Shown here piece by piece: positions 1,739 to 12,008 of a stretch of DNA of 64,000 nucleotides; position 1 is the stretch's first letter; each line of letters opens with the position of its first letter. Source of the stretch: Tissierellales bacterium. Its GTDB lineage: Bacteria > Bacillota > Clostridia > Tissierellales > Tissierellaceae. The notes beneath the pieces were generated by a model. The model saw only the letters and a list, made by a program, of their open reading frames with translations. It searched no databases and was not told the DNA's origin. The position numbers were made by a program, and so were the translations under genes. The DNA lies in assembly GCA_014360205.1 (NCBI GenBank), contig JACIXZ010000004.1, positions 1 to 64,000 on the forward strand, read 5' to 3'.

Positions 1739-3634
1739 ATGAAGAAAAAAAGTATAGTTCTACTTTTGGTGTTCACATTGTTGCTATCAATGCTAGCTGG
1801 ATGTTCTACAACTGAAGAGCCTGTAACACCAGAAGAACCTGTCGTTGAGGAACCAGTAACTGGTGGAAAACCAACTAGTCCAACAGGGCAACTAACTATT
1901 GGTAATACTACTGAGCTTTCTGGGGATTGGGTTCCTTATTGGCAAAACAACGCAGCTGATTACGACATATACAATTTCATAACAGCTTTATCCACAGTAG
2001 ATATCACTTTTGGTGGTGAATATGTAGTAAATGATGCTGCTGTAGAAAAATACGAAACTACACTTAACGAAGATGGATCAAAAACTTACACATGGACAAT
2101 TAAAGATGGGCTTGTTTATGATGATGGTACTCCAATTACTGCAAAAGACTATGTAGCAAGTGTACTATTGTGGTCATCTTCAGTAGTTGGCGAAATGGGA
2201 GCAAGTAATGATTACGGTTATTACCTAAAAGGATGGAAAGATTACTCTTCTGGAGCAACAAAAGAGTTTGCAGGTGTTAATTTAATAGATGATAAGACAT
2301 TTTCTGTTACAATAGCAGCAGAAAATATCCCATACTTCTTTGAACTGACTCTAGCAAGTATAGCACCAACCAAGCTATCTTTCTGGACAGATGAAACTGT
2401 TGAAGTTAAAGATGATGGAAATGGTGCATATTTATCAGAAAACTTCACAAAAGAAAATTTTGAAGAAAGAATTAATTTAGCTAGAAGAGAAGTTCCTAGA
2501 CCTTCTACTGGACCATATGTATTAAAGAGCTATGATGAAGCAGCTAAAACAGCTGTTTTAGAAGTAAATCCAAACTTTCCTGGTGATTATACTGGACAAA
2601 AACCTTTAATTCAGACAGTAATATACAAGAAAGTAAATCAAGAAACAGCTTTTGATGAATTATCAACAGGATCTGTTGATCTTATATCAGGAACAGTTGG
2701 TGGAGACGAAATTAATGCAGGTCTTGATTTGGTTGAAAAAGGTGGATTCTCTTACACAGCATATCCAAGATCTGGATATGGTAAGATTATGTTCCAATGT
2801 GATCATGGACCAACTCAATTTGTAGAAGTTAGACAAGCAATAGCTCATTTGCTTGATAGAAATGACTTCGCTAAAGCTTTCACTGGTGGATTTGGGTCTG
2901 TAGTAAATGGGCCTTATGGTGAATCAATGTGGTTCTATCAAGAGACTAAAGCAGAATTAAATCAAAAATTAAATCAATATCCATACAGCCTTGAAGCAGC
3001 AAAAGAATTATTAGACCAAGCTGGATTCAATCTAGATGCTAATGGAAATCCATATGAATCAGGAATCAGATACAAGAGAATGGACGATGGAACTTTAATG
3101 CCTCTAATTCTTGAGTGGGCATCAACTGAGCAAAATGCTGTATCTGACTTGTTAGTAATAAAACTACAAGAAAATCCAGATTTAGCAGCTGCAGGCATTA
3201 AGATAAATCAAACTGTTATGACATTCACTGAGTTATTGAACTATCTATACAGAGATGCTACTCAAGGAGCTAAATATGGTGTGCCAACATTCCATATGTT
3301 TAACTTAGCAACTAATTATAATCCTGTATATGATTTGTCAACAACTTACACAACAGATCCAGATATGTTTGCACAAGGATACAATACTAACTTCATATTA
3401 GATGAAGAATTAGATAGACTTGCAAAAGAAATGGTAAAAGTTGATCCTGAAGATAGAGAAACTTTCAAACAAAAATTTGTTGAATTCACTGTGAGATGGA
3501 ACTATTTACTACCAGATCTTCCATTGTATTCAAATATTTATCATGATTTCTACAATGATAAATTGAAAGATTATGAAATTAACTCTCTAATTGAGATTTC
3601 AAAAGCGATTCTATACTCATATGTAACAGAGTAA
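1739..3634 (+). CDS. oppA: Peptide ABC transporter substrate-binding lipoprotein (OppA-like)
   Basis: This 631-residue extracellular solute-binding protein belongs to family 5 (SBP_bac_5). The N-terminus is a lipoprotein signal: two to three lysines, a hydrophobic core and the lipobox LAGC with Cys22 as the lipidated residue, followed by an acidic, proline-rich linker (EEPVTPEEPVVEEPV). The body has family features such as the segment on a peptide-dependent transport complex (TYTWTIKDGLVYDDGTPITA) and the VRQAIAHLLDR motif. It would capture oligopeptides and deliver them to OppBC. It is first in the operon, has its own promoter and a strong GGGGGAAA Shine-Dalgarno site. The binding specificity (oligopeptide, dipeptide or other) cannot be read from sequence. 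Confidence 0.9.
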   Translation: MKKKSIVLLLVFTLLLSMLAGCSTTEEPVTPEEPVVEEPVTGGKPTSPTGQLTIGNTTELSGDWVPYWQNNAADYDIYNFITALSTVDITFGGEYVVNDAAVEKYETTLNEDGSKTYTWTIKDGLVYDDGTPITAKDYVASVLLWSSSVVGEMGASNDYGYYLKGWKDYSSGATKEFAGVNLIDDKTFSVTIAAENIPYFFELTLASIAPTKLSFWTDETVEVKDDGNGAYLSENFTKENFEERINLARREVPRPSTGPYVLKSYDEAAKTAVLEVNPNFPGDYTGQKPLIQTVIYKKVNQETAFDELSTGSVDLISGTVGGDEINAGLDLVEKGGFSYTAYPRSGYGKIMFQCDHGPTQFVEVRQAIAHLLDRNDFAKAFTGGFGSVVNGPYGESMWFYQETKAELNQKLNQYPYSLEAAKELLDQAGFNLDANGNPYESGIRYKRMDDGTLMPLILEWASTEQNAVSDLLVIKLQENPDLAAAGIKINQTVMTFTELLNYLYRDATQGAKYGVPTFHMFNLATNYNPVYDLSTTYTTDPDMFAQGYNTNFILDEELDRLAKEMVKVDPEDRETFKQKFVEFTVRWNYLLPDLPLYSNIYHDFYNDKLKDYEINSLIEISKAILYSYVTE

Positions 3635-3782: not shown

Positions 3783-4769
3783 ATGCTTAAGTACGTAGGA
3801 AAGAGAATAATGTATATGATTTTAGTGTTTCTAATCATGTCGGTAGTACTTTTCTTCTTATACAATTTGATTCCAGGTGACCCAGCAAGAGCTGAATTAG
3901 AACCTTTAAGGAACAAATTAACAGCAGAAGAATATCAGTATAGATATGAGCAAGCACGTCAGAGACTAGGCCTTGATGATCCACTACCTGTGAGATACGC
4001 AAAATGGATGAGTGGTGTGCTTCGAGGAGATTTCGGTATGTCATCTGTATATAAATTACCTGTTAACCAAGTGATTATTAATCCTATGAAAGTTACAGTT
4101 TTTATAAACATTTTTTCGATTATAATCACATTAGCTATAACTATTCCACTTGGAATATTTACAGCCGTAAAGAAAAATTCTGTTTTTGACAAGTCAGTGC
4201 AAGTATTAACTATTGTTGGATATAGTATTCCGGTATTTATAATTGCACTATTATTTATATATTTATTTGCTGTAAGATTGGGATGGTTCCCTGTAAGTGG
4301 ACTAAATACTCCTAATTTTTCTGGCACACCTTGGGAAGAGTTTAAAGATATGATGTATCACTTAGCATTGCCTTTAGGAGTATTAGTAGTAGGTTCTCTA
4401 GGAGGATTAACTAGATATGTAAGAGCTGCTATGATCGATGCATTGAGCATGGATTACATAAGGACTGCAAGAGCTAAAGGACTTAAAGAAAGAGTTGTCA
4501 TTTTTTCACATGCATGGAGAAATGCACTTCTACCAGTTATAACGCTAATAATTAGCTGGCTAATGAGTGTATTTGCAGGGTCGCTAGTTGTGGAGAGAAT
4601 GTTCAATCTTAAAGGAATGGGAGATTTTTATATATCAGCATTGACTAATCAGGATTATAATGTAGCACTAGCAATACAATTATTCTATATAATACTTGCT
4701 CTTCTTGGTAATTTATTATCAGACTTAAGCTATGGTATAGTAGATCCAAGAGTAAGAGTAAATAAATAA
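3783..4769 (+). CDS. oppB: Peptide ABC transporter permease (OppB-like)
   Basis: This 328-residue inner-membrane permease is of normal family length. It opens with a first transmembrane helix (MLKYVGKRIMYMILVFLIMS), a long extracellular segment with the family motif DPLPVRYAKWMSGVLRGDFG, then five more helices. The EAA loop that docks the ATPases is seen around residue 225 (DYIRTARAKGLKERVV). AAGGCGGGGGG precedes the ATG. It forms the translocation pore with the OppC product encoded 11 bases downstream. Nothing in it is odd, which contrasts with its partner. Confidence 0.93.
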   Translation: MLKYVGKRIMYMILVFLIMSVVLFFLYNLIPGDPARAELEPLRNKLTAEEYQYRYEQARQRLGLDDPLPVRYAKWMSGVLRGDFGMSSVYKLPVNQVIINPMKVTVFINIFSIIITLAITIPLGIFTAVKKNSVFDKSVQVLTIVGYSIPVFIIALLFIYLFAVRLGWFPVSGLNTPNFSGTPWEEFKDMMYHLALPLGVLVVGSLGGLTRYVRAAMIDALSMDYIRTARAKGLKERVVIFSHAWRNALLPVITLIISWLMSVFAGSLVVERMFNLKGMGDFYISALTNQDYNVALAIQLFYIILALLGNLLSDLSYGIVDPRVRVNK

Positions 4770-4780
4770 GGAGGAGAAAC

Positions 4781-6598
4781 ATGCAAATAGATAACAATCC
4801 AAAGAAAAAAAGATTTTCCCTCCTTAGAAGACTATTTGGTGGGAAAAACGAATTGTCTATTTATGAAGAAGAATTAGTTCAAAGTCCATTTAGGACAATT
4901 ATTTCGAATTTTAAAGACAATAAGGTTGCTATGACTGGATTTATAGGATTCATGATAATTTTAGCAATAGTTCTCATAGGACCGCTATTTATTCCTATAG
5001 ATCTATCTTTCTCAGAGGTAACTCAGATTAATGTTGCACCAGGGCTTGATATGATGAAGGTGCCTAAAGAACTTCAAGGCAATATAAAACAAATTTCTAT
5101 TGGACCAACTTTTTCAGTAGGTATTTCAAATGATGGAGAAGTATTTATATGGGGAAAAACTAGAGTTTCTTCAGCTTTAGATGTTGCTAATATACCCAAT
5201 GATATGGGTAAAGTTGTTCAAGTTGCTGCAGGCTATGATCACATAATGTTTTTAAACGAAGATGGCAAACTATTTTTCTCAGGAAATAACAGACAAATGC
5301 AATCTACTCCTCCTTATGAGGTACAAAATTTGAAAAATATAAAGCAGATTGAAGCGGGATATCAATCGTCTATTGTTTTGAGTGATGATGGATATGTATA
5401 TTATTTTGGGAATTCTATGAATAATGACTATAACGAATTCCATGATTACCAAGGCCAGATTGAAAAGATAGTCACCACAGCGGATGGAGTACTAGGATTA
5501 ACAAAATCAGGAGAAGTAGTATATCTAGGAAATCAACAAAATGCATATACTAGAATTCCAGAAAATATGGGGAAAATTGTAGATGTTGGAACAACTGCGA
5601 ACACAGTAGCAGCTGTAAATGAAGATGGAAAAGTATTTGTTTGGGGAAATATTTCAACAAGAGGAGAAGGAAATCCACCTGAGCTAGTTGATGATAAAAT
5701 AGTAGCGATACAAGGGGGAAGATTTCACTATACTGCTTTAACGGAAAATGGCAAAATCGTTTCATGGGGTGCTAATAATTATAATCAGTCGGATGTACCT
5801 TCTGGATTAAGCGATGTAACAGTTGTTAGCTATTTCACTGATTATTATCAAAACTATGCAATCGATGAAAATGGAAACCTACACACCTGGGGATTAAAAG
5901 GATATCTTTTGGGTACGGACGAGCTAGGCAGAGATATATTATCTAGGCTAATAAACGGTGGTAGAATGTCTGTATTTATTGGAGCAGTAGCTGTAGTAAT
6001 TTCTACTTTTATAGGCATAATAGTTGGTAGTGTTTCAGGATTTGTCGGAGGCAGAGTTGACATAGTTTTACAAAGGATTTCTGAAATGGTTTCATCATTG
6101 CCATTTTTACCTTTTGCGATGATATTATCATCTCTTATAGGAAATTCACTTACTTCAAATCAAAGAGTATTTTTGATCATGGTAATATTAGGTCTTTTAT
6201 CATGGCCAGGCTTACAAAGACTTGTAAGAGCTCAAATACTATCTATTAGAGAACAAGAATACGTTACTGCTGCTAGATCAGTTGGTATAAAGCAAGTAAG
6301 TATCATTTTTAAACATATATTACCAAATGTTGTTTCTGTAATAATTGTTTCTGCAACTTTGTCTTTTGCAACCAGTATGCTTACAGAAGCCACTTTATCC
6401 TACCTTGGATTTGGGGTACAGCCTCCTCAGCCGACATGGGGGAATATGTTGTATGGCGCTAACAATAGTATAGTTATTCAAAATTACTGGTGGAGATGGG
6501 TATTTGCTTCCATTATATTAGGTGTATGCGTTATTTGCATCAACTTAATTGGAGATGGATTAAGAGATGCGATTGACCCTAAATCTCAAGAACGTTAG
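4781..6598 (+). CDS. oppC: OppC-like peptide permease with an inserted seven-repeat RCC1-like beta-propeller
   Basis: At 605 residues this permease is about twice the usual OppC length. Residues 1-75 are the normal OppC N-terminal region with the first membrane helix (about 50-72). Residues 375-605 are the normal binding-protein-dependent permease domain, starting with the conserved LLGTDELGRDILSRL motif and holding the EAA loop near residue 493 (EYVTAARSVGIKQVS). Between them, residues about 100-372 form seven repeats of 39-43 residues, each with a DG/NG-x-(V/L/I)-x-x-x-G signature such as NGKIVSWGANNYNQSDVPSG. This is the RCC1/BLIP-II-like propeller pattern. Topology puts the propeller outside the cell, at the mouth of the pore. 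Frame and base composition are continuous, so it is one intact gene. Confidence 0.92.
   Translation: MQIDNNPKKKRFSLLRRLFGGKNELSIYEEELVQSPFRTIISNFKDNKVAMTGFIGFMIILAIVLIGPLFIPIDLSFSEVTQINVAPGLDMMKVPKELQGNIKQISIGPTFSVGISNDGEVFIWGKTRVSSALDVANIPNDMGKVVQVAAGYDHIMFLNEDGKLFFSGNNRQMQSTPPYEVQNLKNIKQIEAGYQSSIVLSDDGYVYYFGNSMNNDYNEFHDYQGQIEKIVTTADGVLGLTKSGEVVYLGNQQNAYTRIPENMGKIVDVGTTANTVAAVNEDGKVFVWGNISTRGEGNPPELVDDKIVAIQGGRFHYTALTENGKIVSWGANNYNQSDVPSGLSDVTVVSYFTDYYQNYAIDENGNLHTWGLKGYLLGTDELGRDILSRLINGGRMSVFIGAVAVVISTFIGIIVGSVSGFVGGRVDIVLQRISEMVSSLPFLPFAMILSSLIGNSLTSNQRVFLIMVILGLLSWPGLQRLVRAQILSIREQEYVTAARSVGIKQVSIIFKHILPNVVSVIIVSATLSFATSMLTEATLSYLGFGVQPPQPTWGNMLYGANNSIVIQNYWWRWVFASIILGVCVICINLIGDGLRDAIDPKSQER
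5078..5896 (+). repeat. Seven tandem RCC1-like repeats encoded inside oppC
   Basis: Repeat units begin at about residues 100, 143, 185, 225, 264, 304 and 344 of the permease, spaced 39-43 residues. Each has a hydrophobic strand, an acidic-Gly turn and a final (W/F/L/S)G. They are degenerate at DNA level, so this is an old domain and not a recent tandem duplication. Seven units match the blade number of classic RCC1 propellers. The last unit runs directly into the conserved OppC LLGTDELGRD motif. Confidence 0.85.
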
Positions 6599-6610
6599 GG
6601 GGAATAATAG

Positions 6611-7603
6611 ATGGCACTATTAGAAATTAGAGATCTTCACACATTTTTCAAAACAAAAAGAGGCATAGTAAAAGCAGTAAATGGTGTAACTTATTCAATA
6701 GATCAAGGGAAAACCTTAGGACTTGTTGGAGAATCTGGAAGTGGGAAAAGCGTATCAGCAATGAGTATTATAAAGTTATTGGATGGCAATGGGTATATCG
6801 AAAGCGGAGAAATTATATTTGATGGTCAAAATTTGGCAGATGTACCTATTAGAGAAATGACTCATATAAGAGGGAATGATATTTCTGTTATTTTCCAAGA
6901 ACCAATGACCTCTTTAAATCCAGTCTTTACTATAGAAAGGCAAGTCGCAGAGCCTTTCATAATACATCAAAAAATGAGTAAAAAACAAGCTAATAAGGAA
7001 GTAGTAAACATGCTTTCGCTTGTTAAGATACCGAATCCTGAGTCAGTTGCAAAGCAATATCCACATCAACTTTCAGGTGGTATGAGACAGAGAGTTATGA
7101 TAGCGATGGCTTTGGCATGTATGCCTAAACTATTGATTGCAGACGAACCTACCACAGCTCTCGATGTTACAATACAAGCACAGATATTGAACCTAATGAA
7201 TGACCTTAAGTCCCAAATAGGAACATCGATTTTATTTATTACTCACGACTTAGGAGTAATAAATCAAATGGCAGATGACGTCGCTGTTATGTATTGTGGG
7301 CAAGTTGTTGAGAAAGCACCAAGAAAAACAATTTTTTCAGATATAAGCAAATACATGCATCCTTATACTGAAGGGTTGATGTATTCTATACCTAGATTGG
7401 ATACTGAAAAAGGCAAAAGGCTTGAAGCAATCCCTGGGGCAGTACCTCATCCACTAGATTTACCTAAAGGATGCAAATTTGCACCAAGATGTAAATATGC
7501 AACAGATAAATGCAATAATGAAGAGCCTAAACTTCTCAATATTGAAAATGATCACCAGATAAGGTGCTTTTATCCAGAGAAAGGGGTGAGAGCAAATGCC
7601 TAA
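6611..7603 (+). CDS. oppD: Peptide ABC transporter ATP-binding protein (OppD-like)
   Basis: This 330-residue cytoplasmic ATPase energises the OppBC pore. It shows Walker A GESGSGKS (residues 40-47), the Q-loop motif IFQEPMTSLNP, signature LSGGMRQR, Walker B LLIADEP and the H-loop ITHDLG. The C-terminal oligopeptide-transporter domain ends with a cysteine cluster (GCKFAPRCKYATDKC plus a later Cys), a motif that holds an iron-sulfur cluster in some characterised OppD/DppF-type ATPases. Length is normal. The gene follows oppC by 12 bases and overlaps oppF by 8 bases, which implies coupled translation. Confidence 0.93.
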   Translation: MALLEIRDLHTFFKTKRGIVKAVNGVTYSIDQGKTLGLVGESGSGKSVSAMSIIKLLDGNGYIESGEIIFDGQNLADVPIREMTHIRGNDISVIFQEPMTSLNPVFTIERQVAEPFIIHQKMSKKQANKEVVNMLSLVKIPNPESVAKQYPHQLSGGMRQRVMIAMALACMPKLLIADEPTTALDVTIQAQILNLMNDLKSQIGTSILFITHDLGVINQMADDVAVMYCGQVVEKAPRKTIFSDISKYMHPYTEGLMYSIPRLDTEKGKRLEAIPGAVPHPLDLPKGCKFAPRCKYATDKCNNEEPKLLNIENDHQIRCFYPEKGVRANA

Positions 7604-9116
7604 CCATAAAGATAACAAGAAAGTATTGATTAGGGTTGAGAATTTAAAACAGTATTTTCCTGTAAAAAGAGGTTCAATATTTAACCCTGAGCATTTGTTC
7701 GTAAGAGCTAACGAGGATGTTACATTAGATATATATGAAGGAGAGACATTTGGTCTAGTAGGAGAGAGTGGTTGTGGGAAATCTACTTTAGGAAGAACCT
7801 TGCTTCAATTATATCAGCAAACAGATGGAAGAACACTTTACTATGGAAAAACTATAGAAGATATAACACCACAATATGTTCTTGAAACTTTTAAGAATTT
7901 AAGTAAGGAAGTTAACGAGCTAAATCACCTAAGAAATAGAGAAAATCAAGATAAATTGAATTATGAAAAATTGCCGGATGGAAATGAAAAATTTAAAGCA
8001 TTAGAAAAATATAGAGAGTCCGAAAAAAAAGCAAGAAACAAATATCTTGATATAGTAGAATTAGTAGGAGGATTTATTGTTGCTGATGATCTAACACAGA
8101 TATCTAATGTTTTAACTCGACAATTTGAAGTTAAAATACAAGCTAGAGAAATAAGAGATGAAATTAACAAATTGCAGATAGAAATTGACGAATTAAAGGC
8201 TAAAGGTAAAGGTACTGACAAGCAAGTCAACAAAATCGAAGAATTGAAAGCTGAATTAACTAAAAAAGAAGAAGAAATAAATAAATATGAAACTGAGATA
8301 ATTAAGCTTAGAGAAAAATATAAAGATCATCCTGATTTTCAAAAACATGAAAAATTAAAAGATGATGGTATAAATTTAGCTAAATTAGAAGATGAAGAAA
8401 TGAGGAGATTAAGAAAAGACTTACAATTAATTTTCCAAGATCCATATTCTTCATTAAATCCAAGATTAACTGTTGGTCAGATAATTTCAGAAGGTTTATT
8501 TGCACATAATATGTTTCCAAAAAATAGTGATCAAACTCAAGCATATATTTTGGAAACTATGGAAAAATGTGGACTCGCACCTTATTTCGTGCATAGATAT
8601 CCTCATCAATTTTCTGGCGGACAAAGGCAAAGAATTGGAATTGCTAGATCCATAGCGCTAAATCCAAAATTCATAGTTTGTGATGAAGCAGTATCCGCAC
8701 TTGATGTTTCAATTCAATCGCAGATTATCAATCTTTTAATTGATTTGAAAGAGAGGGAGAATTTGACTTATTTGTTTATAAGTCATGACTTGAGTGTAAT
8801 AAGATATATTAGCGATAGGGTAGGGGTAATGTATCTAGGAAATATTGTTGAATTAGCAGATACTGAAGAAATTTTTGAACATATGATGCATCCTTATACG
8901 CAAGCATTGTTATCAGCTATACCAACTACTGATCCAGAAGGAACAAAAATTGAAGTTTTAGAGGGAGATATACCTAGCCCAATTAAACCTCCTACTGGAT
9001 GCAAATTCCATACAAGATGCAAATATGCAACTGAAATTTGTTCACAAGTTCAGCCGGAGTTTGAAGAAGCTAGACCGGGGCATTTTGTGGCTTGTCACCA
9101 TAAATTAAATGTGTAA
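7596..9116 (+). CDS. oppF: Peptide ABC transporter ATP-binding protein (OppF-like) with a long coiled-coil insertion
   Basis: This 506-residue ATPase pairs with OppD. Walker A is GESGCGKS (residues 57-64), the Q-loop is LIFQDPYSSLNP (near 281), the signature is FSGGQRQR, Walker B is FIVCDEA and the H-loop is ISHDLS. The C-terminal cysteine motif (GCKFHTRCKYATEIC) is present. The usual length is about 320 residues. The excess, residues about 91-265, sits between Walker A and the Q-loop. It is rich in Lys and Glu with heptad-like stretches (EINKLQIEIDELKAKGKG, KIEELKAELTKKEEEINKYE), so it probably forms a cytoplasmic coiled-coil hairpin. All catalytic motifs are intact, so the enzyme should still work. 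The start overlaps the oppD stop. Confidence 0.92.
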   Translation: MPNHKDNKKVLIRVENLKQYFPVKRGSIFNPEHLFVRANEDVTLDIYEGETFGLVGESGCGKSTLGRTLLQLYQQTDGRTLYYGKTIEDITPQYVLETFKNLSKEVNELNHLRNRENQDKLNYEKLPDGNEKFKALEKYRESEKKARNKYLDIVELVGGFIVADDLTQISNVLTRQFEVKIQAREIRDEINKLQIEIDELKAKGKGTDKQVNKIEELKAELTKKEEEINKYETEIIKLREKYKDHPDFQKHEKLKDDGINLAKLEDEEMRRLRKDLQLIFQDPYSSLNPRLTVGQIISEGLFAHNMFPKNSDQTQAYILETMEKCGLAPYFVHRYPHQFSGGQRQRIGIARSIALNPKFIVCDEAVSALDVSIQSQIINLLIDLKERENLTYLFISHDLSVIRYISDRVGVMYLGNIVELADTEEIFEHMMHPYTQALLSAIPTTDPEGTKIEVLEGDIPSPIKPPTGCKFHTRCKYATEICSQVQPEFEEARPGHFVACHHKLNV

Positions 9117-9136
9117 TTAGAAATGATGTGATTTAA

Positions 9137-9331
9137 TTGTTTTTTCAAGACAAAGTAGATCGTGCTTTTAAATGGCTAAATGATAAAAACAAAAAAGCAG
9201 AAGTAGAAGAAAATGAAGATATTGAGCTAGAAAAACTTGATATTCTAGCGATAATCATATCTGCTGTTATAGTTTTTTTGCCAATTTTAATAGTACTGGG
9301 GTTAATTATATATTTTGTATTGAGATTATAA
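9137..9331 (+). CDS. Small single-helix membrane protein, function unknown
   Basis: This frame encodes 64 residues starting with TTG: a charged N-terminal half (KVDRAFKWLNDKNKKAEVEE) and a C-terminal hydrophobic helix (ILAIIISAVIVFLPILIVLG). It follows oppF by 20 bases and is closed by a strong terminator, so it is probably the last gene of the opp operon. No ATG start is available: upstream in-frame codons hit a stop. The Shine-Dalgarno site is weak (GATGTGAT). The composition, position and terminator argue that it is real. The orientation would leave the charged half in the cytoplasm. I do not recognise a family. Confidence 0.6.
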   Translation: MFFQDKVDRAFKWLNDKNKKAEVEENEDIELEKLDILAIIISAVIVFLPILIVLGLIIYFVLRL

Positions 9332-9362
9332 AATATCGGCACTTTTTGTGCCGATATTTTAT
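9330..9362 (+). terminator. Terminator of the opp operon
   Basis: A 13-base perfect stem (AAAATATCGGCAC with its complement) closes a TTTTT loop and runs into TTTT. It ends the operon right after the small membrane protein gene. Confidence 0.85.
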
Positions 9363-9391
9363 TTGACAAGAAGAATCATTAGAACTATAAT
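9363..9391 (+). promoter_or_regulatory. Perfect consensus sigma-A promoter for the HAD phosphatase gene
   Basis: TTGACA (9363-9368) and TATAAT (9386-9391) match consensus at all twelve positions with a 17-base spacer. The start codon is about 40 bases further on. This predicts strong constitutive transcription. Confidence 0.85.
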
Positions 9392-9430
9392 ATCACAAAG
9401 CATAAAATTCATAATATTGGAGGGATATAT

Positions 9431-10156
9431 ATGAGTACTATAGCAGCTTTTTTCGATATTGATGGAACAATATTTCGAAAATCTCTAATGATAGAGCATT
9501 TTAGGAAGTTAATTGCATTTGAGATAATAAGTCCTGAGATATGGTATTCTAAGGTTGAAAAAGCATATTTGGATTGGGAGAGAAGATATGGTGATTTTGA
9601 GGAATATTTAGAGATATTAGCTGAGGTATATGTAGAAGAACTAAAGGGAATAAGAAAAGATTATATTGAATTTATAGCTAAGCATGTTATTGAATTAAAT
9701 TGGGACATGGTATATAAATATTCAAGAAGGCAAATAGAATGGCACAAAGAAAATGGGCACAAAATATTCTTCATATCAGGTAGTCCAGATTTTTTAGTGT
9801 CAGAAATGGCTAAGAAGTATGGTGCTACTGAATACAGAGGTTCTGCATATTTGGTGGATGAAAACAACTGTTTTACCGGAGAATTAATTAAAATGTGGGA
9901 TTCTGAGAGCAAAGCTAAAGCTCTCGACGAAATAATAAATAAATATGATGTAAATTTGTCTGAGAGCTTTGCATATGGAGATACAACTGGCGATTATTCA
10001 ATGTTAAAATTGGTAGGAAACCCAATAACTATTAATCCTAATTTTGAACTCCTTAATATGATTAAAAAGGATGAGGATTTATCTAAAAAAATTCAAATTA
10101 TTGTTGAAAGGAAAAACGTAATTTATAAGTTGGATTCTAATGTTGAACTCATTTGA
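9431..10156 (+). CDS. HAD superfamily phosphatase, subfamily IB
   Basis: This 241-residue cytoplasmic hydrolase has the HAD nucleophile motif FFDIDGTIF (both aspartates present), the motif II serine in FFISGSPDFLV and motif III/IV AYGDTTGDYSML. The helical cap inserted after motif I is of the subfamily IB type, as in phosphoserine phosphatase SerB and CicA-like proteins. The true substrate cannot be deduced. GGAGGG lies 7 bases before the ATG. The last 8 bases overlap the end of the convergent helicase gene, and no terminator lies between them, so the two mRNAs would have complementary 3' ends. Confidence 0.85.
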   Translation: MSTIAAFFDIDGTIFRKSLMIEHFRKLIAFEIISPEIWYSKVEKAYLDWERRYGDFEEYLEILAEVYVEELKGIRKDYIEFIAKHVIELNWDMVYKYSRRQIEWHKENGHKIFFISGSPDFLVSEMAKKYGATEYRGSAYLVDENNCFTGELIKMWDSESKAKALDEIINKYDVNLSESFAYGDTTGDYSMLKLVGNPITINPNFELLNMIKKDEDLSKKIQIIVERKNVIYKLDSNVELI

Positions 10157-12008
10157 TTTTACTTAGTTCATCAATAAATTGAGATTGTTTGACTGCAATT
10201 GAATCCAATATATTGTAACTTGTTAGTGTTAACTCATATTTGGCTCTAGTAATACCGACATAAAAAAGCCTGCGTTCCTCTTCGAATTCAATTGGGTTGC
10301 CATCATTTAGAATGTCTAGACTTGAAGAACTTGGGAATTGGCCATTTATTAAATCTATGATTATAACTTTATCGAATTCTAGACCTTTAGCTCCATGAAT
10401 AGTGGATAAAGTTATATTGCTTTGTACCTTTGAAGATTCTTTGATATTTCTTTCTAAACTTATCAATTTGTTACGCAGTTGTTCAGTATTATTAGTATCA
10501 TTTGCAATTAGCTTTAAATAAAATATCATTTGCATAAGAGTTTCATAAGTATATCCTAGCCTGTTACAATTCTCTTTTATATACGAATGGTAGTCTAAAT
10601 TAAATACTATATAATCAATAGCGTTTTTAGGCTTTAATTTAGAAAGTTTTTTAAAATCCAATTCTAATTCCCTTATTTTCATCTTATAAAACTCACTCAA
10701 GCCAGGGTAAGAAAGCATATTGGAGAACACATCATTATTTTTATTATTTGTACTTGCCCAAAAAACCATTTTTTTAGAAATATAGCCTTTTTTCTTGTAA
10801 TATATCTGAGAATATTTCAAGAAATTCTTAGTATCATTTGCAAACTCTAAAAAGCAAAAAATATCTTTAATTAACCAATGATTGAAAAATTTCAGCTTAA
10901 AATCTCTCATACTAAATTTATAGTTCTTTTCAGATAAGCAATAAATTAAACCTAATGAAGATAAATTGTTTCTATATAATATTGCAAGCGACTCATCTTT
11001 ATTTTTTTCAATCTCCTTAATTAAAAATCCATATTGGTCTAAAATCGTACTAAATTTCAAAATTTTAATCGGAGAGCTGTATGGATTACTAGTAAAAATA
11101 TCTTTTTTGTATCTATTCAAATTATTTGATATAAATGAATAACTTGCTTCTACTATATTTCTAGATGACCGATAATTTTCTTTTAGATAGTATATATGGC
11201 CATTTGGATACATTTTTTTAAACTCTAGCAGTTGTTTTGGATAAGCTCCTCGAAAACCATAGATAGATTGGTCATCGTCAGCAACAACAAATATATTATT
11301 TTTTGGTGTAGCAATTAAACTAATTATGTTAAACTGAATTATAGAAGTGTCTTGCCCTTCATCTATTTGAATATAATCAAATTTGTTTTTATACAGATCA
11401 AGTATGCTATTATCAGTTTTTAGAATGCTATGAGCTTTTGTCAACATATCATCAAAATCTATTAATTTTTTATCTAACTTGTATTTTTCATAATTATAAT
11501 AAATATCAATAAAATTTTCTATGTCTACCCTTTTGTTTTTAACAAATTCCTCTGGAGTAATACACATATTTTTGATAAAACCTACATATGAAAAAAAGTT
11601 TTCAAGTTTTTCTTCTGTAATTTGATTTCCAGTAAGGTTTTTATAAATTGCAGAAACTATTGAATATTTATTTTTATCAATGTATTCATTTTCAATTAAT
11701 ATATATTTTTGATTAGCTTTTCTCTCATAGGTTCTAATTATTTCATAGCAGAAAGCATGAATTGTCATAAATTTTGGGACAATATTAGCAGATGGAAATG
11801 TTTCTTGAAATCTTCTTTCCATATCAATAGCAGATGCCTTGCTGAAAGTTATTGAAAGAATTTTTCTGGGATTAATATTTAGCCTTTTTGTTAGATAATA
11901 TACTCTATGAATCAAAACAGTAGTCTTCCCAGAACCAGGAACTGCTAAAACTAGTGCAGGACCATTTAAATGAGAAATAGCTAGATTTTGTTCTTTACTA
12001 AATTGCAT
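10149..12008 (-). CDS. UvrD/PcrA-like superfamily 1 DNA helicase, compact form
   Basis: This 619-residue ATP-dependent 3'-5' helicase has motif I AVPGSGKTT (about 22-30), motif II IDEGQDTS, motif III VADDDQSIYGFRGA, motif V STIHGAKGLEFDKV and motif VI RRLFYVGITRAK. PcrA/UvrD proteins are usually 700-750 residues; here the C-terminal region after motif VI is only a few dozen residues, so the Tudor-like tail that binds RNA polymerase in PcrA is missing. It is therefore probably an accessory repair or recombination helicase rather than the housekeeping PcrA. TAGGAGG lies just before the ATG. Its 3' end overlaps the convergent HAD gene by 8 bases. Confidence 0.88.
   Translation of the reverse strand: MQFSKEQNLAISHLNGPALVLAVPGSGKTTVLIHRVYYLTKRLNINPRKILSITFSKASAIDMERRFQETFPSANIVPKFMTIHAFCYEIIRTYERKANQKYILIENEYIDKNKYSIVSAIYKNLTGNQITEEKLENFFSYVGFIKNMCITPEEFVKNKRVDIENFIDIYYNYEKYKLDKKLIDFDDMLTKAHSILKTDNSILDLYKNKFDYIQIDEGQDTSIIQFNIISLIATPKNNIFVVADDDQSIYGFRGAYPKQLLEFKKMYPNGHIYYLKENYRSSRNIVEASYSFISNNLNRYKKDIFTSNPYSSPIKILKFSTILDQYGFLIKEIEKNKDESLAILYRNNLSSLGLIYCLSEKNYKFSMRDFKLKFFNHWLIKDIFCFLEFANDTKNFLKYSQIYYKKKGYISKKMVFWASTNNKNNDVFSNMLSYPGLSEFYKMKIRELELDFKKLSKLKPKNAIDYIVFNLDYHSYIKENCNRLGYTYETLMQMIFYLKLIANDTNNTEQLRNKLISLERNIKESSKVQSNITLSTIHGAKGLEFDKVIIIDLINGQFPSSSSLDILNDGNPIEFEEERRLFYVGITRAKYELTLTSYNILDSIAVKQSQFIDELSKIK

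Follow-up and report, generated by a model that had tools for sequence, protein, structure and literature searches.

The locus analysed here raises the question of why the OppC permease of an ABC importer should carry an RCC1-type propeller between its first two membrane helices, and of what such a domain may contribute to the transporter. The operon lies in a 64,000-nt stretch of DNA, referred to as the window throughout, and encodes the complete Opp/Dpp set of a binding protein, two permeases and two ATPases (Table 1). Within OppC, an OppC_N domain is followed by BPD_transp_1 in a chain with the OppC fold, the arrangement of Opp/Dpp type I importers. Judged by its domains and gene content, the operon is an Opp-type (type I) importer of a distinct subfamily, with peptides as the substrate suggested by its family. 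Against the NCBIfam Opp4C equivalog NF045476 the window OppC scores 311.2 bits, under the curated cut-off of 350.

Table 1. Features of the importer operon, with coordinates given as window positions.
Feature	Position	Strand	Description	Basis
OppA lipoprotein	1739..3634	+	enlarged SBP_bac_5 protein, 631 aa	Pfam; lipobox LAGC by eye
OppB permease	3783..4769	+	328 aa, without large insert	Pfam
OppC permease with RCC1 propeller	4781..6598	+	605 aa, ATG start	Pfam, AlphaFold2, VIA-align
Seven-bladed RCC1-like propeller (predicted)	5042..5896	+	OppC residues ~88-372, between TM1 and GTDxxGRD	Pfam, AlphaFold2, VIA-align
OppD ATPase	6611..7603	+	330 aa, standard length	Pfam
OppF ATPase	7596..9116	+	506 aa	Pfam, structure match
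Four-helix insert in OppF (predicted)	7872..8351	+	about residues 93-252 (~160 residues), between Walker A and Q-loop	alignment, model, profile

Profile searches and structure prediction agree on the nature of the OppC insert. Pfam places OppC_N at residues 35-87 of the protein and BPD_transp_1 at 412-601, and the region between them matches RCC1_2 in five stretches (E 8.6e-36, 121.3 bits, cut-off 22) and RCC1 at 26.4 bits, above the cut-off of 21.7; its score against WD40_RLD, 138.6 bits, is under the curated cut-off of 150. Seven repeats can be recognized by eye, each with a DG, NG or SG turn and ending in WG, FG, LG or SG. An AlphaFold2 model calculated from a 46-row alignment of related sequences (mean pLDDT 85.1, pTM 0.77) folds residues 102-371 into 21 strands, or seven sets of three, with block-mean pLDDT values of 87-95, flanked by TM1 (residues 48-70) and by TM2, which starts at residue 386. 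In a comparison of the model with known structures using VIA-align, the best match of the insert was the beta-lactamase inhibitory protein BLIP-II (3qi0_C; Z 30.1, rmsd 2.0, 254 residues aligned within model residues 88-362, 26% identity), and the RCC1-type structures among the matches listed gave Z scores of 21.8-30.1. Residues 33-600 of the same model align with 278 of the 278 residues of E. coli OppC (8z21_B; Z 30.4, rmsd 2.2). The model therefore places a whole seven-bladed RCC1-type propeller inside an otherwise complete OppC, as had been proposed in a preliminary description of this DNA, which noted propeller-like repeats between TM1 and the GTDxxGRD motif and looked to structure prediction for a closed seven-blade fold. 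The boundaries given there for the insert, 5078-5896, hold at the end, but the start lies earlier, at about residue 88 (nt 5042) instead of residue 100 (nt 5078). From the sequence, the linker from the C-terminal end of the propeller to the GTD motif is very short (WG-LKG-YLLGTD).

The propeller is probably extracellular, a placement that follows from the expected topology of the permease. First, the N-terminus that precedes TM1 is rich in K and R, with a mean of 10.7 K+R against 6.5 D+E in 73 sequences. Second, the TM1-TM2 regions of both permeases are periplasmic in the DppBCDF structure, as described in the accessible part of that study (PMC12136057). Finally, the cysteine content of the insert (4.7 per 1000 residues) is low, like that of OppA (5.7), and compares with 10.4 in the membrane part of OppC, 17 in OppF and 20 in OppD. 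The OppD and OppF values are perhaps raised by iron-sulphur cysteines, as the accessible part of the same study attributes such a cluster to DppD and DppF (PMC12136057). These observations support the position outside the membrane that had been assigned to the propeller at the outset.

A short TM1-TM2 loop, initially taken as the normal state of OppC, is the usual condition but not a universal one. In four loci (L094-L097) OppC proteins of 585-596 aa have a different, unrelated insert of ~280 aa within this loop, for which a Pfam scan of one member, L097, gave no match, and an N-terminal extension lengthens the OppD of these operons to 390-407 aa. A smaller insert occupies the same loop in L098 and L099 (OppC of 360-395 aa), and OppC is also above plain length in L162 and L167, the last four spanning 360-397 aa. 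Comparison of these proteins identifies the TM1-TM2 loop of OppC as a recurrent insertion site.

To define how widespread the fusion is, OppC-derived peptide patterns were used to scan one genome per species across 84,980 species, a survey limited by those patterns. The scan returned 54 loci, of which 50 are fusions of OppC with RCC1, in records that include Tissierellia, Lachnospiraceae, Oscillospiraceae, Acetivibrio ethanolgignens, Merdimmobilis hominis and Soehngenia longivitae; the closest relatives of the window OppC among them, at 87% identity, come from S. longivitae and a Tissierellaceae bacterium, which makes Soehngenia or a near neighbour its probable source. Importers of this kind occur in many gut and anaerobic bacteria. 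In a class-level sample the insert was matched at E<=1e-20 in 15 of 391 genomes, all 15 being fusions, and in a phylum-level sample at E<=1e-10 in 23 of 398 genomes, 14 being fusions; both samples contain the genome of the window and one congener. RCC1 proteins other than OppC (L075-L078 in the species scan, and those of nine phylum-sample genomes, six of which were inspected as loci) were excluded from the fusion counts.

When 118 OppC membrane domains are compared in a tree built by a quick method without the insert, all 73 fusions fall together on one side of a single branch (SH-aLRT 97), with long-branch warnings for some plain rows; rows with fewer than 200 matched residues, with a better match to OppB, or identical to another row were omitted. 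The plain OppC of L128 (343-3529) is the tree row nearest to the RCC1 clade, on a long branch and with support of 87. The fusion apparently arose once, and neither multiple independent fusions nor a recent transfer confined to the insert is supported, since the membrane part by itself yields one clade. For three pairs of near relatives the dN/dS of the insert is 0.035-0.082, with dS values of 0.6-2.1 that are partly saturated, which indicates that the insert is under purifying selection. An assembly artefact or frameshift fusion was considered and rejected, because other genomes, named isolates among them, show the same architecture in 50 of 54 loci, and the fusions form a single clade with low dN/dS. 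The search for further OppC-RCC1 fusions suggested in the preliminary description thus led to a conserved, one-clade subfamily, which that description lacked, as it did the helical insert in OppF and the larger OppA described below.

The second insert of the system resides in OppF. Its model consists of four long helices with block pLDDT values of 88-97, in a protein that otherwise matches E. coli OppF (8z21_D; Z 37.2 over 319 residues, VIA search) and whose 50 listed structure matches, for the whole chain, are all ABC ATPase chains. Pfam searches with the insert gave scattered weak matches, and among the 25 families listed none was found in more than 3 of 47 members. A profile built from 47 RCC1-linked rows matched OppF in 57 of the 57 RCC1 loci in which this gene is readable, 54 as whole ORFs of 461-556 aa and three as split frames; the 57 loci represent 56 distinct OppF proteins that are not all independent, and for the 47 rows the profile match, unlike the length, is given by construction. 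None of 20 Opp operons without a propeller matched the profile at E<=10, and their OppF proteins measure 279-392 aa, the value of 279 coming from one piece of a split gene. Of the 17 matches to the profile in the same 391 class-sample genomes, 15 fall in the RCC1 genomes, one (G073) in a genome in which inspection revealed an RCC1-OppC, and one (G158) on a contig that stops inside OppD, where the neighbour on the OppC side is not readable. The propeller on OppC and the insert on OppF are strictly linked.

Other features of these OppF proteins were recorded alongside. In L128, whose OppF (392 aa) is the longest among the propeller-free operons, additional residues precede Walker A, at another place than the RCC1-linked insert. 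The residue after the Walker B D-E is A or C (DEAVSALD, DECVSALD) in 14 of 15 RCC1-linked OppF rows aligned and P in five plain ones, with L134 retaining P. OppF is split over two frames in the RCC1 loci L144, L032 and L146, possibly through draft-genome sequencing errors or real decay.

Since the C subunit binds DppF in E. coli Dpp, according to the accessible part of that study (PMC12136057), homology suggests that the OppC propeller and the OppF insert probably belong to the same half-transporter.

OppA is enlarged in these operons as well. Of 59 OppA proteins from RCC1 loci, 58 measure 598-815 aa and the remaining one is a 405-aa fragment from a split gene, whereas all 12 from plain operons (12 of 12) have 511-583 aa; the additional segments lie within the binding protein. 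In every RCC1 locus with at least 3.6 kb of upstream DNA (57 of 57), OppA is found upstream of OppC. In L138 a tandem pair of OppA-like genes (7919-11999) lies upstream of the RCC1-OppC operon.

To explore whether propeller and binding protein diverge together, partial correlations of distances beyond those of OppD and the OppF core were calculated, the pairs not being independent. Across 50 loci the partial r is 0.44 between propeller and OppA (0.28-0.60 in half-samples) and 0.03 between the propeller and its own membrane domain. Within the 34 nearest loci this contrast is gone, with values of 0.54 for propeller and OppA, 0.38 for propeller and membrane part and 0.37 for propeller and OppF insert, and OppA correlates more strongly with the OppC membrane part (0.63) than with the propeller. 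Co-variation is thus not specific in the nearest loci, and we judge it weak as proof of docking.

Loop conservation, mapped by strand order, is uneven from blade to blade. Loops joining strands 1 and 2, on the side from which the final strand leaves for TM2, reach 0.60-0.64 in blades 2, 3, 6 and 7; blade 1 has 0.53, blades 4 and 5 have 0.44-0.48, and loops on the opposite side score 0.43-0.58. By this measure neither face of the propeller is clearly singled out. The exit side presumably corresponds to the binding face of BLIP-II, going by the hot-spot residues of that protein, and the conserved loops may be packed against the rest of OppC.

We propose that the propeller serves as an extracellular docking platform for OppA, a reading to which we assign a probability of about 0.5 and which rests on analogy. 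It appears likeliest because RCC1-type propellers are binding platforms, with BLIP-II the nearest, and because AmiD, AmiC and MalF-P2 provide precedents. Listed structural relatives of the propeller bind proteins or peptides, as entry titles state for HERC2 RLD2 with a DXDKDED motif and for UVR8 with COP1 or RUP2. In an AlphaFold model of the pneumococcal Ami permease, the TM1-TM2 coil of AmiD (OppC) touches the binding protein at lobe 2, and the accessible part of the study proposes ECD2 of AmiC as an additional platform for it (PMC11192437). Because a plain, short AmiD loop already makes such a contact in that model, an extra domain would not be needed for docking as such. A propeller at the mouth of the OppBC pore would offer the enlarged OppA a permanent additional docking surface that supplements the usual contact with the OppB scoop, and so could make OppA engagement more efficient or more specific. 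The early suggestion that the propeller could hold OppA is plausible by analogy; it fits the Ami precedents in the accessible text (PMC11192437), and the co-variation adds a weak and non-specific signal. On the cytoplasmic side, the four-helix insert of OppF would mark the same half-transporter, where its probable role is to tune the ATPase or to engage a partner in the cytoplasm.

An alternative that we consider unlikely is that the propeller binds some other surface partner, such as a peptidase at the cell surface, a component of the cell wall or further binding proteins whose genes lie elsewhere, and thereby joins peptide production to uptake. BLIP-II, HERC2 RLD2 and UVR8 illustrate the general use of RCC1-type propellers as platforms for other proteins, two OppA-like genes lie beside the fusion in L138, and the greater conservation of strand 1-2 loops in blades 2, 3, 6 and 7 than in blades 4-5 is compatible with such a partner; the constant presence of OppA upstream of the fusion points back to docking of the cognate binding protein. 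We regard as decidedly doubtful a further extension, in which the propeller outside and the OppF insert inside form one two-sided control module and a partner bound to the propeller alters, through OppC, the ATPase activity or cytoplasmic contacts of OppF. If it were true, the importer would be a transmembrane signalling device besides a peptide pump.

It is quite improbable that the propeller binds peptides or gates the pore, either by pre-collecting or filtering substrates at the OppBC mouth or by sealing the outward cavity. Its position beside the pore mouth, by homology, would suit this role, some RCC1-type propellers bind short peptides (7q41, by entry title), and a seal of the outward-facing cavity is proposed for the scoop of E. 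coli DppB in the accessible part of that study (PMC12136057), but OppB of the window, the counterpart of the scoop-carrying subunit in Dpp, has a normal length, so that a seal would need no replacement. Least probable is a structural role, in which the propeller acts as a spacer or helps assembly by stabilizing OppC or OppBC in the envelope without a specific partner, for although the very short C-terminal linker implies a rigid seat on OppC and the unrelated domains of other OppC proteins show that the loop tolerates insertions, purifying selection, uneven conservation between blades and the link to the OppF insert all suggest more.

If the propeller does dock OppA, nature here provides a type I ABC importer in which the contribution of an additional docking domain could be measured. 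A protein-binding propeller of a kind familiar above all from eukaryotes has become part of the permease in a peptide importer of a common type, and many Bacillota retain the fusion along with the second insert across the membrane. The most striking aspect of the system is this pairing of OppC with OppF on opposite sides of the membrane, which raises the question of how an outer domain of OppC might be coupled to an inner domain of its ATPase partner.

Open-access full texts, a body that excludes bioRxiv and most subscription journals, yielded no description of an RCC1 propeller in a transporter or permease, and comparison must be made with systems that share parts of the arrangement. BLIP-II, the best structural match, is likewise a seven-bladed RCC1-type propeller, but is a separate secreted inhibitor of class A beta-lactamase, whereas the window propeller is a domain between two OppC membrane helices; Ran nucleotide exchange, the activity of RCC1 proper, is to our knowledge not to be expected in a bacterium. 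E. coli OppBCDF and DppABCDF and M. tuberculosis OppABCD share the binding protein, two permeases, ATPases and OppC fold, but their OppC/DppC chains of 287-302 residues are too short for the propeller, as are the E. coli OppF/DppF chains of 322-328 residues for the helical insert. Closer parallels in role are AmiC, which we take to be the counterpart of OppB, and MalF-P2 of the maltose importer, which differs from the propeller in fold, subunit and insertion point. Ami also bears extra extracellular mass on an Opp-type subunit, proposed as a binding-protein platform, but the large part belongs to AmiC (residues 31-278) and AmiD contributes only a coil (64-99), with no propeller mentioned in the accessible part of the report (PMC11192437). 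MalF-P2, a folded periplasmic region of the permease (residues 91-271), contacts the binding protein, as stated in the accessible part of its description (PMC3150292). By analogy with these two domains, the propeller most likely resembles AmiC ECD2 and MalF-P2 in role without being homologous to either.
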